A stretch of 58,392 nucleotides of DNA from Actinomycetes bacterium (GTDB lineage Bacteria; Actinomycetota; Acidimicrobiia; Acidimicrobiales; Palsa-688): the NCBI GenBank assembly GCA_021838445.1, contig JAKCDU010000024.1, positions 1-58,392 on the forward strand, read 5' to 3'. Positions 22,018 through 30,813 of the stretch are shown piece after piece (within the stretch, counting starts at the first letter, position 1; each line of letters opens with the position of its first letter). The notes under the pieces are model-generated. The model was not told the DNA's origin. It saw only the letters and a program-made list of their open reading frames with translations, and did no database searches. The translations under genes and the position numbers were made by a program.

Positions 22018-22293
22018 TCAGGCCGGCTCGACGAGGACTCTGCCGACGAAGCCGTGCTCCACCGGGCCCCGGCCCGCTCGGCCAGCTCGATGGCGAAATG
22101 GCCGACGGACCCGGCCCCGCCGGCGACGAGTGGGCCGGGGGGTGACACCGGCGCGGGTCTTCCAGTCAGGGGGGTTCACCCCCGACAGCTCCACAAGCCC
22201 CCGAACCTGACCCGGGCCCGGCTCGGGGCGTTCCCCCTCCGTGACCCGGAGCACCTGCGACGGTCCGGTCGTGTCATGGACGGCAGCTCTCAT
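22018..22293 (-). pseudogene. Remnant of a zinc-independent quinone oxidoreductase (MDR family)
   Basis: Three pieces of a quinone-oxidoreductase-like protein occur in order but in different frames. The N-terminus is MRAAVHDTTGPSQVLRV...VELSGVNPPDWKTRAG. The Rossmann motif, in another frame, is VAGGAGSVGHFAIELAERAG. The C-terminus, back in the first frame, is VEHGFVGRVLVEPA followed by a stop. An intact member is about 310 residues; here only about 276 bases remain, so two internal deletions with frame changes have occurred. It lies on the minus strand, 7 bases upstream of the SIP gene. Confidence 0.75.
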
Positions 22294-22380
22294 CCGGCCA
22301 TTCTCCACCCAGACGGCGCCCCGCCCGACGCAACGGCGGATCGCTAGAGTTCGACCCGACCCGCCGAGGGAGGACCTACC

Positions 22381-23745
22381 GTGTCAGCCACCGCCGTAGA
22401 ACCAACCCCGATAGCACTGCCCGACGGGCTGGTGGCGGTGGTCAAGCGGGACTGCCCGACCTGCGTGGAGGTGGTCCCGGTCCTCGAGGAACTGCAGCAC
22501 GGGCCGGGTCTGACCGTCGTTTGCCAGGACGACCCGTCCTTCCCGGGGCCGGCGACGGTGGACGACCGGGACCTCGAGATTTCGTGGCACCTGCGGATCG
22601 AGACCGTCCCCACCTTGCTGCGCATCGACGGGGGGAAGGAGGCGGGCCGGACAGTCGGCTGGCACCGCCAGCGGTGGGAGGCCCTCGCCGGCACGAGCGA
22701 CCTCGGGGCGGGCCTGCCCGACCAGCGACCGGGCTGCGGGTCGCGCACCCTCGACCCGGACGTGGCCGCCCTCCTCGACGTACGCCACCGCGGTCATCTG
22801 ATGCGCTCCCGACGGGTCTCCTTCTCCGCCCTCGAGGACGACTTCGAGGCCATGTGGGAGCGGGGCTGGACCGACGGCCTCCCCGTGGTCCCCCCGACCG
22901 AAGCCCGGGTGCTGGCCATGCTCGACGCCACGACCCGACCCGCCGACGACGTCGTGGCCGTCGTCGCGCCCAACCTGGTGCCCGCCACCGTGGAGAAGGT
23001 GGCGGTCAACGCCGTGATGGCGGGCTGCCGGCCCGAGTACCTGCCGGTCGTGCTGGCCGCAGTCGAGGCCGCCTGCACCGACGCGTTCAACATCCACGGT
23101 GTGCTCGCCACCACCTACTCGGTGGGCCCGGTCCTCGTGGTGAACGGTCCAGTCGCCCGGGCCATCGGCTTGAACAGCGGGGTGAACGTGCTCGGCCAGG
23201 GCCACCGGGCCAACGCGACCATCGGACGGGCCCTGCAGCTAGTGGTCCGCAACGTCGGGGGTGGACGGCCCGGGGAGATCGACCGGGCGACCCTCGGCAA
23301 TCCCGGCAAGGTCGGGTTGTGCCTCGCCGAGGACGAGACCGACTCGCCGTGGGAGCCTTTGGCCGTGGCCCGCGGGGTGGCCCCCGGCCGCTCCGCGGTC
23401 ACCGTCCTGGCCGGCGGCGGGGTCCGCACCGCAGCCGACCAGAAGTCCCGTACCCCTGAGGACCTGACGAGGAGCCTGGCTCGGTCAATGCGGGGCCAGG
23501 AGGCGCTGCTCGTCGTATCACCCGATCACGGCCGGATCTACCGCCAGTCCGGATGGACCAGGCAGAGGTTGGCCGACGAGCTGGCGGAGCTACTCCCAGC
23601 GAGAACCGGGCTCGGCGGCGCCGAGCCGCCGGAACTGCTGATCGCCTACGCCGGTGGCCGAGCCGGATTATTCTCGGGGGTAATGGAGGGATGGGTCGGC
23701 GGGTCGGCCGGCAGCGTCCCGGTGACAGTGGAGGTCGGATCATGA
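22381..23745 (+). CDS. Thioredoxin-like domain (CPTC) fused to an unrecognised domain; partner of the UGSC selenoprotein
   Basis: A 454-residue protein from GTG 22381. Residues 1-120 form a thioredoxin-like fold: LVAVVKRDCPTCVEVVPVLEEL with a CPTC redox motif, and ETVPTLLRIDGG with the cis-Pro. The rest is a domain I cannot name: WTDGLPVVPPTEARVLAML, VEKVAVNAVMAGCRPEYLPVVLAAVEA, GLNSGVNVLGQGHRANATIGRA, ending LLIAYAGGRAGLFSGVMEGW. Its TGA overlaps the ATG of the UGSC selenoprotein gene by 4 bases, so the two are translated together. I infer that it reduces, or works on the same substrate as, the selenoprotein. TAGAGT (22345-22350) may be the operon's -10 box. Confidence 0.8.
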   Translation: MSATAVEPTPIALPDGLVAVVKRDCPTCVEVVPVLEELQHGPGLTVVCQDDPSFPGPATVDDRDLEISWHLRIETVPTLLRIDGGKEAGRTVGWHRQRWEALAGTSDLGAGLPDQRPGCGSRTLDPDVAALLDVRHRGHLMRSRRVSFSALEDDFEAMWERGWTDGLPVVPPTEARVLAMLDATTRPADDVVAVVAPNLVPATVEKVAVNAVMAGCRPEYLPVVLAAVEAACTDAFNIHGVLATTYSVGPVLVVNGPVARAIGLNSGVNVLGQGHRANATIGRALQLVVRNVGGGRPGEIDRATLGNPGKVGLCLAEDETDSPWEPLAVARGVAPGRSAVTVLAGGGVRTAADQKSRTPEDLTRSLARSMRGQEALLVVSPDHGRIYRQSGWTRQRLADELAELLPARTGLGGAEPPELLIAYAGGRAGLFSGVMEGWVGGSAGSVPVTVEVGS

Positions 23746-24320
23746 CTGGGAAGCCTCGCCCCGACGGCGCCACCACGGTGCTCGATCCGACGGCCGAGAC
23801 GGCGCCCGCATGGCGCCCCCTGCGGCCCCGACCGGCGTCTCTCGACGGCCTGACCATCGGCCTGCTCGACATCTCCAAGCCGAGAGGCGACGTGTTCCTC
23901 GACCGCATCGAGGCCCGTTTGCAGGAGCAGGGGCTAAGGGTGCGGCGCTACACGAAACCGACATTCACCAAGCCCGCTCCGGTGGACCTGCGCCAGGAGA
24001 TCGCCATGCACTGCGACGTGGTGATAGAGGCGCTCGCGGATTGAGGTAGCTGTACGTCGTGCAGTGTGCACGACCTCGCCGACCTCGAGTCCCGGGGCGT
24101 CCCCGGAGTGTTCGCCGCCTCCCGCGAATTCACCACCGCGGCCCAGGCCCAATCGGAGGCCCTCGGCTTCCCCGCCGCTGCGGTGTTCGTGGATCATCCC
24201 GTCCAGGACCGCACCGACGAGGAGATGCGGGCCCTCGCCGACGCCGCCCTCCCAGCCCTGCTCGCCGCCCTGTCGGCGACGCCGGGCCAGCCGACCGGGA
24301 CGGGCCCCGGGCACGGCTGA
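23742..24320 (+). CDS. UGSC-motif selenoprotein; UGA at 24042-24044 read as selenocysteine
   Basis: The frame starting at ATG 23742 meets TGA at 24042-24044 and continues, in the same frame, to TGA 24318-24320, giving 192 residues with Sec101. The first part ends CDVVIEALAD; the continuation reads GSCTSCSVHDLADLESRGVPGVFAASREF. The junction is therefore U-G-S-C, the defining motif of the UGSC (seleno)protein family, followed by a further Cys pair. A perfect hairpin lies 12-30 bases after the UGA, with its loop at bases 19-23, as in bacterial SECIS elements. Its exact reaction is unknown; a redox role is inferred from the Sec and Cys residues and from the upstream CPTC thioredoxin-like gene, with which it overlaps by 4 bases. 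Conventional gene calling gives a truncated protein ending at 24044 and loses the second half. Confidence 0.9.
24056..24074 (+). promoter_or_regulatory. SECIS hairpin of the UGSC selenoprotein
   Basis: Perfect 7-bp arms (GTCGTGC / GCACGAC) close a 5-base loop, AGTGT. The loop occupies bases 19-23 after the UGA, the same place as the GGUCU loop of E. coli fdhF, and keeps its G-U at positions 20-21. A short outer GAG/CTC pairing next to the UGA is possible. I see no counterpart of the bulged U of the E. coli element. Confidence 0.7.
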
Positions 24321-24441: not shown

Positions 24442-25614
24442 ATGACCTCGATACTGTCCGACCTGTTCGTGGTCGATGCCGACTCGCACTGGTCCGAGCC
24501 GGCCGACCTGTTCACCAAGCGGGCGCCGGCCCACCTGAAAGACCGCGTGCCCCACCATGAGACCGTCGACGGGGAACGGCTCTGGATCATGGACGGAGTG
24601 CCCATCGGCCACGCCATCGCCGGAGCCGTGATCGGGGCCGACGGTCGCAAGGCACCGGCAGCCGAGTCGCTGTCGGTGTGGATGGTCGAGGAGGCTCATC
24701 CCGGCGCGTCCGACCCGAGAGCCCGCATCGCCGTCCTCGACGAGTTCGGCATCGACGCCCAGGTCATCTTCCCGAGCACGATCGGCCTCGGCGGCCAGTC
24801 CCTGGCCTCGGTTCCCGACCAGGACCTCTGCCGGATCTCGGTGGAGATATACAACGACGGCATGGCCGAGGTGCAGGAGCAGTCCGGCCAGCGACTGCTG
24901 CCCATGCCCCTGATGCCGGCCTGGGATGTCGATCTGTGCGTGGCCGAGGCCAAACGGGTGGCGGCCATGGGTGCCCGGGGCGTCAACATGACCTCCGACC
25001 CCCAGGACCTCGGCGCCCCCGACCTGGCCGACCGGGCGTGGGACCCGTTCTTCGCCGCCTGCGCCGAGCTGCGCCTTCCGCTGCACTTCCACATCGGCGC
25101 GTCGGTGACGGGGATGACGTTCTACGGCAAGTACTTCTGGCCTTCCCAGGCAGAGGGCACCAAACTGGCCATCGGCGGATCACTCCTGTTCATCGGCAAC
25201 GCCCGCGTCGTCACCAATCTCATCCTGGCCGGGACCTTCGACCGCCACCCCGACCTGCAGTGCGTGTCGGTCGAAAGCGGGGTGGGCTGGATACCTTTCA
25301 TCCTCGAGACCCTCGACTACGAGATGTTCGAGAACGCCCCCGACGAGTTGGCCAAGCTCTCCAAGCCCCCGTCGGAGTACTTCCGGTCGAACATGTTCGC
25401 CACCTTCTGGTTCGAGAACAACCGGAACCGCCTACCCGAGCTGGTCGAAGCGGTCGGTGAGGACTGCATCCTCTTCGAGACCGACTTCCCCCACCCGACC
25501 TGCCTCTACCCCGATCCGCTCGACTACGTGGACGAGAAGATGGCCACGCTGACGCCGGGGTCGCGGGCCAAGATCATGGGCGAGAACGCCCGGCGCCTGT
25601 ACCGGCTCCAGTAG
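24442..25614 (+). CDS. Amidohydrolase family 2 (ACMSD-like) metal-dependent hydrolase/decarboxylase
   Basis: A 390-residue TIM-barrel protein. Metal and active-site positions appear in VVDADSHWSEPADLF, HFHIGASVTG, VESGVGWIPF and FETDFPHPTCLYPDP, matching amidohydrolase-2 proteins such as ACMSD and related decarboxylases. The family acts on aromatic or acidic ring-cleavage products. TAGGGT (24385-24390) may be its -10 box, and GGGGGTGGAGCC precedes the ATG. A second member of the same family lies at 36697-37866, so the strain probably uses several such steps in catabolism. Confidence 0.85.
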   Translation: MTSILSDLFVVDADSHWSEPADLFTKRAPAHLKDRVPHHETVDGERLWIMDGVPIGHAIAGAVIGADGRKAPAAESLSVWMVEEAHPGASDPRARIAVLDEFGIDAQVIFPSTIGLGGQSLASVPDQDLCRISVEIYNDGMAEVQEQSGQRLLPMPLMPAWDVDLCVAEAKRVAAMGARGVNMTSDPQDLGAPDLADRAWDPFFAACAELRLPLHFHIGASVTGMTFYGKYFWPSQAEGTKLAIGGSLLFIGNARVVTNLILAGTFDRHPDLQCVSVESGVGWIPFILETLDYEMFENAPDELAKLSKPPSEYFRSNMFATFWFENNRNRLPELVEAVGEDCILFETDFPHPTCLYPDPLDYVDEKMATLTPGSRAKIMGENARRLYRLQ

Positions 25615-29695: not shown

Positions 29696-30739
29696 TCAGC
29701 TGCGACCCATGATGGTGTCGATGTCCTGGTTGAAGTCGGATATGAACGGCCAGTCCTCGCCCTCGGCGGGGGCCTGACGGAAGCGGGTCCACTCGTCGTC
29801 TCCGTCGTCGCCGGAGCGCTCGACAGCCAGGGCCGACCACGCCTGCCGCTTGTAGGTGACGTTCTCCGGGTGCAGCCGGTGGGCGTGGTTGAAGTGGGTG
29901 ATGACCCGCTCGGTCAAGCCCTCCTGGCGCCAGAAGTGCTGGGCCAGCTCGAAGTGGGCGGCCGCCTCGGACACCGATGGCGGGGTCGGGCGGGAGCGTT
30001 CGACGACCTGGTCGGGGGTCAGGGCGTAGGGGCTGTCCCCGCCGTTGGCCACCCAGTCGCGCAGCTCCTGCACGTACTGTTCCCGCTCCTCCATGCCACC
30101 GATCATCTCCACCAGGCGAAGAGCACCTTCCCCGACGGGCATGGGCCACCCCCGGTGCGGGGGTCTGACGATCGTGCCCTGCTCGTCGATCCAGACCACC
30201 TGGGGAACGTTGGTCACACCGAACAGGGCGTCTAGGGCGTGCCCTTGGTCCACGAGCGAGGGGTGGCTCGAGCCGGCCGCCTCCACGAAGGGCCGGGCCA
30301 CTTCCGGACCGGCCATCTCCAGACAGACATCCACTACTTCCAGACCGAGAGGATTCAGCTCCTCCCACAGTGCCTGCCACCCGGGCAGGTCCCATCGACA
30401 GCCTCAGTAGGGGGCCCAGGCGACGAGGGCCACCTTGCGACCCTCCATCTGGCGCAGGCGGAATTCCCTGCCGTCGAGGTCCGGGAGCGCCAAGTCGGGG
30501 GCGGCGGCGCTCATCAGGGCCCGCCCACCGAGGGCTTCGGGCCCGAGAGCCCAGGCCCCGAGGTCGGGATCGTGGACCACGGCCATGCCGAGGCTGGCGC
30601 ACGTGGCGGCCAGATCGAACGGTCCGGCCCCCAGGGGCACGCACACATCGCCCTTGCAGGCGCCCTCGGGTTTGATGGCCCAGCCGGTGGCCGCCTCGAA
30701 CTCGTCAGGGGTGCACTCGAAATCGGAGAGAAGCAGCAC
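29696..30739 (-). CDS. Thioredoxin-fold selenoprotein (redoxin); UGA at 30404-30406 read as selenocysteine
   Basis: From GTG 30739 the frame runs 111 codons to TGA (30404-30406) and continues in the same frame to 29696, giving 347 residues with Sec112. The junction is VALVAWAPY-U-GCRWDLPGWQALW. This is the place of the WCxxC motif in AhpC/TSA and TlpA/ResA-type redoxins, so the active site is Sec-Gly-Cys. The N-terminal 75 residues form a separate region with CKGDVCVPL. After the redoxin domain (FGVTNVPQVVWIDEQGTIV, with cis-Pro) there is a helical TPR-like tail (AAHFELAQHFWRQEGL...HRLHPENVTYKRQAW). No signal peptide is seen. A minus-strand TAGATT (30747-30752) is 7 bases upstream. Without recoding, two unrelated-looking fragments result. 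Confidence 0.85.
30373..30389 (-). promoter_or_regulatory. SECIS hairpin of the redoxin selenoprotein
   Basis: On the minus strand the bases 15-31 after the UGA form perfect 6-bp arms (CCTGCC / GGCAGG) around the loop CGGGT. The loop is at positions 21-25, two bases further than in the other two selenoprotein genes here. It keeps a G-rich loop ending in U. Confidence 0.6.
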
Positions 30740-30813
30740 GGCCGTGAATCTAACCTACTTCGGTCGATCCCGGATTTCCGGAGCACTCCTCCGCTTGTGC
30801 TAGGCACAGAGGC

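Follow-up and report, generated by a model that had tools for sequence, protein, structure and literature searches.

A UGSC-family selenoprotein gene with an in-frame UGA, its linked partner gene, and expansion of the family in betaproteobacteria

On a contig from an Acidimicrobiales genome (GenBank assembly GCA_021838445.1), a reading frame meets a TGA codon and stays open beyond it. Is this TGA a stop or a codon for selenocysteine (Sec), and what might the complete protein do? We use "the window" for the whole stretch of DNA analyzed, 58,392 nucleotides in length, and all positions refer to it unless a locus or contig is named. The initial annotation proposed that the frame encodes a UGSC selenoprotein, and the coordinates that it gave, from ATG 23742 through the in-frame TGA at codon 101 to 24320, are correct; 24320 is the final base of the true stop codon (Table 1). 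Codon 101 is indeed followed by GSC, so that reading through the TGA yields the U-G-S-C motif. It was also expected that standard annotation would end the protein at residue 100. Such an annotation might, however, place the start at ATG 23553 instead of 23742, which would give 163 residues.

Table 1. Positions of the UGSC gene, its partner gene and associated elements in the window
Feature	Position	Strand	Description	Basis
UGSC-family selenoprotein gene	23742..24320	+	192 aa, Sec at residue 101; stop TGA 24318-24320	Family models and reading frame
TGA codon, predicted Sec101	24042..24044	+	Motif U-G-S-C-T-S-C	Homologues carry Sec, Cys or TAG; codon-change pattern
GGAGG, likely ribosome-binding site	23730..23734	+	7 nt 5' of ATG 23742	Sequence
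Bacterial SECIS-type hairpin	24056..24074	+	Arms 24056-24062 (GTCGTGC) and 24068-24074 (GCACGAC); loop AGTGT 24063-24067	
Partner gene	22381..23745	+	454 aa; stop overlaps UGSC start (ATGA)	
Partner N-terminal thioredoxin-like domain	about residues 8-105		CPTC	Profile and structure matches
Partner conserved C-terminal domain	about residues 136-452		No Pfam or NCBIfam match	Conserved in relatives

Two curated models of the UGSC family match the read-through protein, each spanning the UGA over nearly the full length of its profile. NF041046 (NCBIfam) scores 159.2 bits against a curated cut-off of 125 (residues 35 to 177, profile positions 1 to 146 of 147), and PF24696 (Pfam) scores 157.4 bits against a cut-off of 25 (residues 12 to 178, profile positions 1 to 171 of 172). 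At E values up to 5, Pfam returned UGSC only, and an Rfam search of positions 23900 to 24300 gave a single chance match. No solved structure was related to the protein by sequence at E values up to 1; a profile built from relatives (the 71 UGSC loci described below minus L061, L109, L075, L080, L077, L088, L091, L101, and L116) found one match, at E 0.39.

Published mention of the family goes back at least to 2008, when a Global Ocean Sampling survey described a "UGSC-containing protein" and counted 255 Sec forms and 21 Cys forms (PMC2398784). In the part of that survey that was available, the protein resembles ours in its Sec motif, in the exchange of Sec for Cys, and in its SECIS-type hairpin. 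The gene at 23742 to 24320 is confirmed as a further member of this already known selenoprotein family. Nothing that we found in the protein sets it apart from the rest of the family; for the window it means one truncated annotation corrected in an otherwise ordinary gene, and its own novelty is small.

Among 28 relatives read at the position of residue 101, 24 carry Sec and 4 carry Cys (the window itself forms the 29th row, the fragment L042 was left out, and 16 of the 46 UGSC matches described below have no extracted locus), and none of the homologues read ends there. The genome (3.99 Mb in 117 contigs) encodes the whole insertion machinery that a selenoprotein would call for: selC, selA, selB, and selD form a cluster on contig C10, all with scores above their curated cut-offs, and the anticodon of selC is TCA. 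The Sec or Cys alignment, the sel genes, and the lack of homologues truncated at this point all bear out what was first proposed for the site.

A search of named genomes based on the partner gene yielded 80 loci, 71 of them with a UGSC gene. The motif codon was readable in 70 (in L075 the contig ends 5' of the motif) and is TGA in 68 and TAG in 2, at position 6671 of L061 and position 6662 of L109. The records of the two TAG genomes bear the titles Candidatus Blastococcus massiliensis AP3 and Geodermatophilus obscurus. Each genome has an Rfam match to tRNA-Sec (64 and 65 bits) with the anticodon CTA, which ARAGORN labels tRNA-Pyl. Pseudonocardia bannensis has TGA at the Sec codon and a tRNA-Sec with the anticodon TCA. 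The earlier paper on UAG-coded UGSC proteins is reportedly that of Mukai and others in 2016. Such proteins in Geodermatophilaceae had already been reported, with an earlier paper cited (PMC5330540); as far as that source describes them, they share family and Sec position with the window protein, whereas the window uses UGA with a TCA anticodon and they use UAG, with CTA as the tRNA-Sec anticodon in L061 and L109.

Codon changes were counted on both sides of the UGA in five pairs, in ungapped alignments without correction and over at most 60 codons before the UGA and 44 after it. Synonymous and nonsynonymous changes were 7/1 before and 4/0 after the UGA for L025, and 17/8 before and 19/6 after for L026, both loci from the same genus. 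The corresponding counts were 15/14 and 15/14 for L024, 17/13 and 18/12 for L029, and 15/14 and 12/11 for L034. In all five pairs, the changes downstream of the UGA look like those upstream of it.

The perfect 7-bp hairpin that the initial annotation described, with its AGTGT loop at bases 19 to 23 after the UGA, is exactly as stated. Its folding energy is ordinary: the 42-nt stretch has a z score of -0.38, and 58 of 200 shuffled sequences fold equally well or better. The hairpin was therefore tested by comparing relatives, and its support comes from covariation, not from energy. At least 6 of the 7 pairs are kept in 99 of 118 distinct sequences. Both this set and a set of 94 hairpin sequences include 23 rows from whole-genome loci picked as Sec rows, and the hairpin counts cover Sec forms, not Cys forms. 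In an alignment of 82 of the 94 (80 distinct), 94.6% of cells pair, and both sides have changed at 5 of the 7 pairs. The covariation score of 0.145 compares with a shuffled mean of 0.096 and was reached by 0 of 500 shuffles, which ignore relatedness. When the register was slid, at most 52% of cells paired; a slide of +2 gave a covariation score of 0.132 (52% pairing), near the observed value, and a slide of +3 gave 9 pair types against 8 in the true register.

The last stem pair joins codons 107 and 109 at their third positions and, counted from the table of sequences, forms in 114 of 118. In rows with Val109, the valine codon is GTG whenever residue 107 is Cys (55 of 55) and GTC whenever it is Trp, encoded by TGG (10 of 10). 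This codon switch is silent in the protein and preserves the pairing (as a wobble in one TGT-GTG row). The four rows that do not pair at codons 107 and 109 are TGG-GCG, GCC-GTC, GCG-TCG, and GCT-GGC. A Fisher test on these codons was confined to rows with Val, Ile, Leu, or Thr at 109, leaving the Met rows and one nonpairing Trp107-Ala109 row outside, and we give it no weight.

Five lines thus agree: the sel genes, Sec or Cys at the site, TAG together with a CTA tRNA-Sec, the codon changes, and the covariation of the hairpin. Taken together, they make it almost certain that Sec would be inserted at UGA 24042-24044. The reading of the TGA as an ordinary stop, which would leave a 100-residue protein or a pseudogene with a downstream frame open by chance, is consistent with the unremarkable folding energy and with the long open frames common in the GC-rich DNA of the window, but it is rejected in view of family matches that cross the UGA, homologues with Cys or TAG at the site (TAG with the matching CTA anticodon), and the like codon changes on either side, and with the hairpin covariation also against it we give it next to no credence.

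The window holds a second likely selenoprotein gene, at 29696 to 30754 on the minus strand, with an in-frame TGA at 30404-30406 and a match to NF041054 of 389 bits (cut-off, 300); without read-through, the frame would be 212 aa. Its product would be a ResA-like WAxxUGC protein, which Pfam assigns to redoxin families (AhpC-TSA, Redoxin) and not to UGSC. Also on the minus strand, a 96-aa frame at 22018 to 22308 begins, by eye, like a zinc-type alcohol dehydrogenase or quinone reductase before the frame is lost; it had no Pfam match at E values up to 0.001 and is possibly a broken gene.

Directly upstream of the UGSC gene lies a partner gene of two parts. Its N terminus matches thioredoxin 2o85 in a profile comparison (E 3.5e-4) and a thioredoxin fold in VIA (Z 9.7, rmsd 2.7, 86 residues aligned). 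The only Pfam match of the partner at E values up to 5 was TraF, on the thioredoxin part (E 0.02, below its cut-off). In an alignment of the window and 49 of the 80 named loci (A3, 50 rows), C28 is invariant and C25 is conserved in at least 90% of rows. The cysteine of a MAGC pattern, C216, is likewise invariant in A3 and conserved in at least 90% of the alignment A1. The 50 VIA rows listed for the partner all fall on the thioredoxin part, so that the fold of the C-terminal domain lies outside their reach; weak Foldseek rows (E about 0.01) pointing to a fumarate hydratase or cyclic amide hydrolase fold were not trusted.

The C-terminal domain of the partner is closely linked to the UGSC gene across genomes. 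In the window's own genome and 60 relatives, we found 46 UGSC matches in 23 genomes, and 42 of them have the partner domain no more than 500 nt away; rows matching only the thioredoxin part were excluded from this count. Of the remaining four, one has the domain at 1.2 kb and another has it on the opposite strand at 2.3 kb; the third lies where its contig ends, and the fourth is a 37-residue fragment. The domain is present in 22 of the 23 UGSC-bearing genomes and in 0 of the 38 others.

Among the 80 named loci, UGSC lies directly downstream of the partner, on the same strand and within 350 nt, in 67; it is divergent in 3, at 3.9 kb in 1, and out of reach in 9. One of these nine shows the start of a UGSC gene at the contig end, and two are cut near the partner. 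The other six have no clear UGSC gene in the flank, and their genomes carry at least one elsewhere; a looser search of the nine loci gave two weak matches, in L110 (E 0.002) and L128 (E 0.004). Judging from this linkage and from the fusions described below, UGSC and the partner very probably act together.

Among the partners, only those of the window's subfamily showed the thioredoxin domain; tblastn matches of the others start after it. Weak matches to this domain with one or two TGA codons in frame occur at G059:C62:63173-63592, G060:C252:5364-5765, G040:C82:54038-54442, G048:C150:2323-2718, and G055:C95:282-629; these are perhaps separate thioredoxin-like selenoproteins. An amidohydrolase gene at 24442 to 25614 was considered as a third member of the module and rejected: among loci L020 to L129, it adjoins UGSC only in L025 and L026 (in the latter as a piece cut at the locus end), both of the same genus, with a distant 25% match in L033. 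Neighbor clusters in the 80 named loci were based on a crude list of open reading frames (ORFs), and we draw no conclusion from them. In the survey of 2008, UGSC occurs fused to a domain named Unknown_1 (PMC2398784), which, from what that source gives, may or may not be identical to the partner domain described here.

In the structure predicted for the UGSC protein (pLDDT 86, pTM 0.79), five beta-alpha units make up the fold, and Sec101 immediately precedes the helix after strand 3. The best Foldseek matches of the model are TIR domains and flavodoxins, at TM scores of about 0.4. In VIA, the best match was 8s7v_H (Z 11.7, rmsd 4.4, 136 residues aligned), tied with the next row, and many different proteins had Z scores of about 9 to 11. 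Foldseek and VIA thus yielded general matches only, from which no function could be read. We take the predicted fold to be a general flavodoxin-like domain more probably than a thioredoxin fold, in contrast to the Trx-like fold that the survey, in its available part, expected for UGSC (PMC2398784).

An expanded family of UGSC genes was found in betaproteobacteria. The genome G067 (Betaproteobacteria bacterium isolate RE-9nov16-207, a metagenome-assembled genome [MAG] that includes L114 and loci L156 to L183) has 30 UGSC matches. All 29 readable ones carry TGA; the 30th, on contig C127, scored 22 bits, below the cut-off, and was missed by tblastn. Of the 29 genes, 27 have a partner domain in the same orientation no more than 450 nt away, and 13 of the 29 are fused to it in frame. 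The MAGC pattern was found in 20 of the 27 G067 partners, and at least some of the pattern's remaining hits seem to mark different sites. A single selA is present in G067, which makes a mix of several species that use selenium less likely. One fusion of UGSC and partner, L176 on contig C201, adjoins selA in the opposite orientation.

The expansion covers G067 and its relatives G073 to G107, G109, G112, and G119, and UGSC is present in 39 of the 60 genomes made up of G067 and 59 relatives. The highest count is at least 48 matches in one 5.7-Mb relative, a figure that may include fragments and is a lower bound, since 48 of 71 candidates were scored; the best matches listed for this genome have one TGA each. 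The largest bacterial selenoproteomes that a review gives for all families together, in its available part, comprise 57 or more and 63 genes, the latter from a MAG with a warning of mixed strains attached (PMC13188914). Among the titles, opening lines of abstracts, and passages of freely available papers that were covered, we found neither a description of the UGSC expansion nor any literature on the partner domain.

The surroundings of the G067 genes point to possible substrates. TctC solute receptors (PF03401) account for 45 of 121 ORFs around 28 UGSC loci of this one betaproteobacterial MAG and for 9 of 148 control ORFs (Fisher p 1.6e-10). ORFs were called by a codon-usage script in both sets; neighbors were at least 140 aa long and within 2.6 kb (121 of 171 scanned), and the control consisted of 20 other G067 regions, set by fixed coordinates and drawn from contigs that lack UGSC matches (148 of 150 scanned, two of the largest being omitted). 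Given that G067 as a whole has at least 150 TctC-type receptor genes, it is the enrichment that is informative, not their presence. Other neighbors include MmgE/PrpD (6), acyl-CoA dehydrogenase (3), and CoA-transferase (2), and the neighborhoods together suggest uptake and breakdown of organic acids. No TctC receptor was found among the 13 window proteins scanned; because the window has one module with no receptor among these neighbors, a link to organic acids is carried over to it from the relatives.

We propose the following mechanism. UGA 24042-24044 would be read as Sec by the cell's own SelA, SelB, SelC, and SelD, guided by the hairpin at 24056 to 24074. UGSC would be translated together with the upstream partner gene, and the two proteins would form one functional unit, presumably as a complex. 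Within a flavodoxin-like alpha/beta domain, Sec101 would sit where a helix begins, and its selenolate would attack or reduce an organic substrate that the C-terminal domain of the partner helps to handle. The thioredoxin domain that the partner itself carries would then reset the oxidized selenium, which in the window protein may take the form of a selenenyl-sulfide to Cys104 or Cys107. The cysteines after Sec differ between G067 paralogues (L168 has UGSS and no nearby Cys, and L169 has UGTSC, with the Cys shifted by one), so a Sec101-Cys104 pair cannot be general. As a whole, we consider this explanation, a UGSC selenoprotein and its partner working as a unit by redox chemistry of this kind, to be probable. 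That the module is a substrate-specific catabolic redox enzyme, dependent on a selenol and recharged by thioredoxin, is in our estimate slightly less likely than not.

One alternative casts UGSC as a thioredoxin-type enzyme (Trx-like or peroxiredoxin-like) for general antioxidant defense or repair, and the partner as its dedicated reductase. The available part of the 2008 survey already suspected such a role (PMC2398784), and both the UxxC motif and the thioredoxin domain of the partner would fit it. The five beta-alpha units and flavodoxin-like best matches speak against it, as far as a prediction can, and the number of copies in the 5.7-Mb genome, together with the frequent fusions in G067, suits substrate diversification better. 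We regard this alternative as unlikely.

Glycine reductase combines a substrate subunit with recharging by thioredoxin, and GrdB and PrdB, of the glycine and D-proline reductases, share UxxCxxC spacing. The module might accordingly be a distant GrdB/PrdB relative that forms the same covalent substrate adduct: the window protein has that spacing (U-GS-C-TS-C), and the division of labor among a selenol subunit, a substrate subunit, and thioredoxin is possibly comparable. A sequence relation is not detectable, however. No PF07355 match appeared at E values up to 5, and hhalign gave a probability of 0.4% over 23 columns (a weak test with a shallow profile, in which 5 of 22 GRDB matches were used), so that membership in PF07355 finds no sequence support in either search; the varying cysteines of the G067 paralogues also argue against it. 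We therefore consider kinship with GrdB/PrdB distinctly improbable.

Returning to the substrate-specific reading, the partner linkage, the fusions, the expansion of paralogues, and their receptor-rich surroundings turn UGSC from an "unknown redox protein" into the subject of a testable proposal, that of an enzyme system specific for its substrate. In interest, the window gene itself is outweighed by the partner module and the betaproteobacterial expansion, and the partner may help to reveal what UGSC does. Slightly more tentatively, we suggest that UGSC and its partner make up an unrecognized class of selenium-dependent redox enzymes, two-subunit or fused, in which duplicated copies would each serve another organic substrate and lie beside the solute receptors that import it. 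If so, catabolism would occupy dozens of selenoprotein genes of a single family in some betaproteobacteria (at least 48 in one genome), and the window would carry a single-copy, thioredoxin-fused form of the same module.
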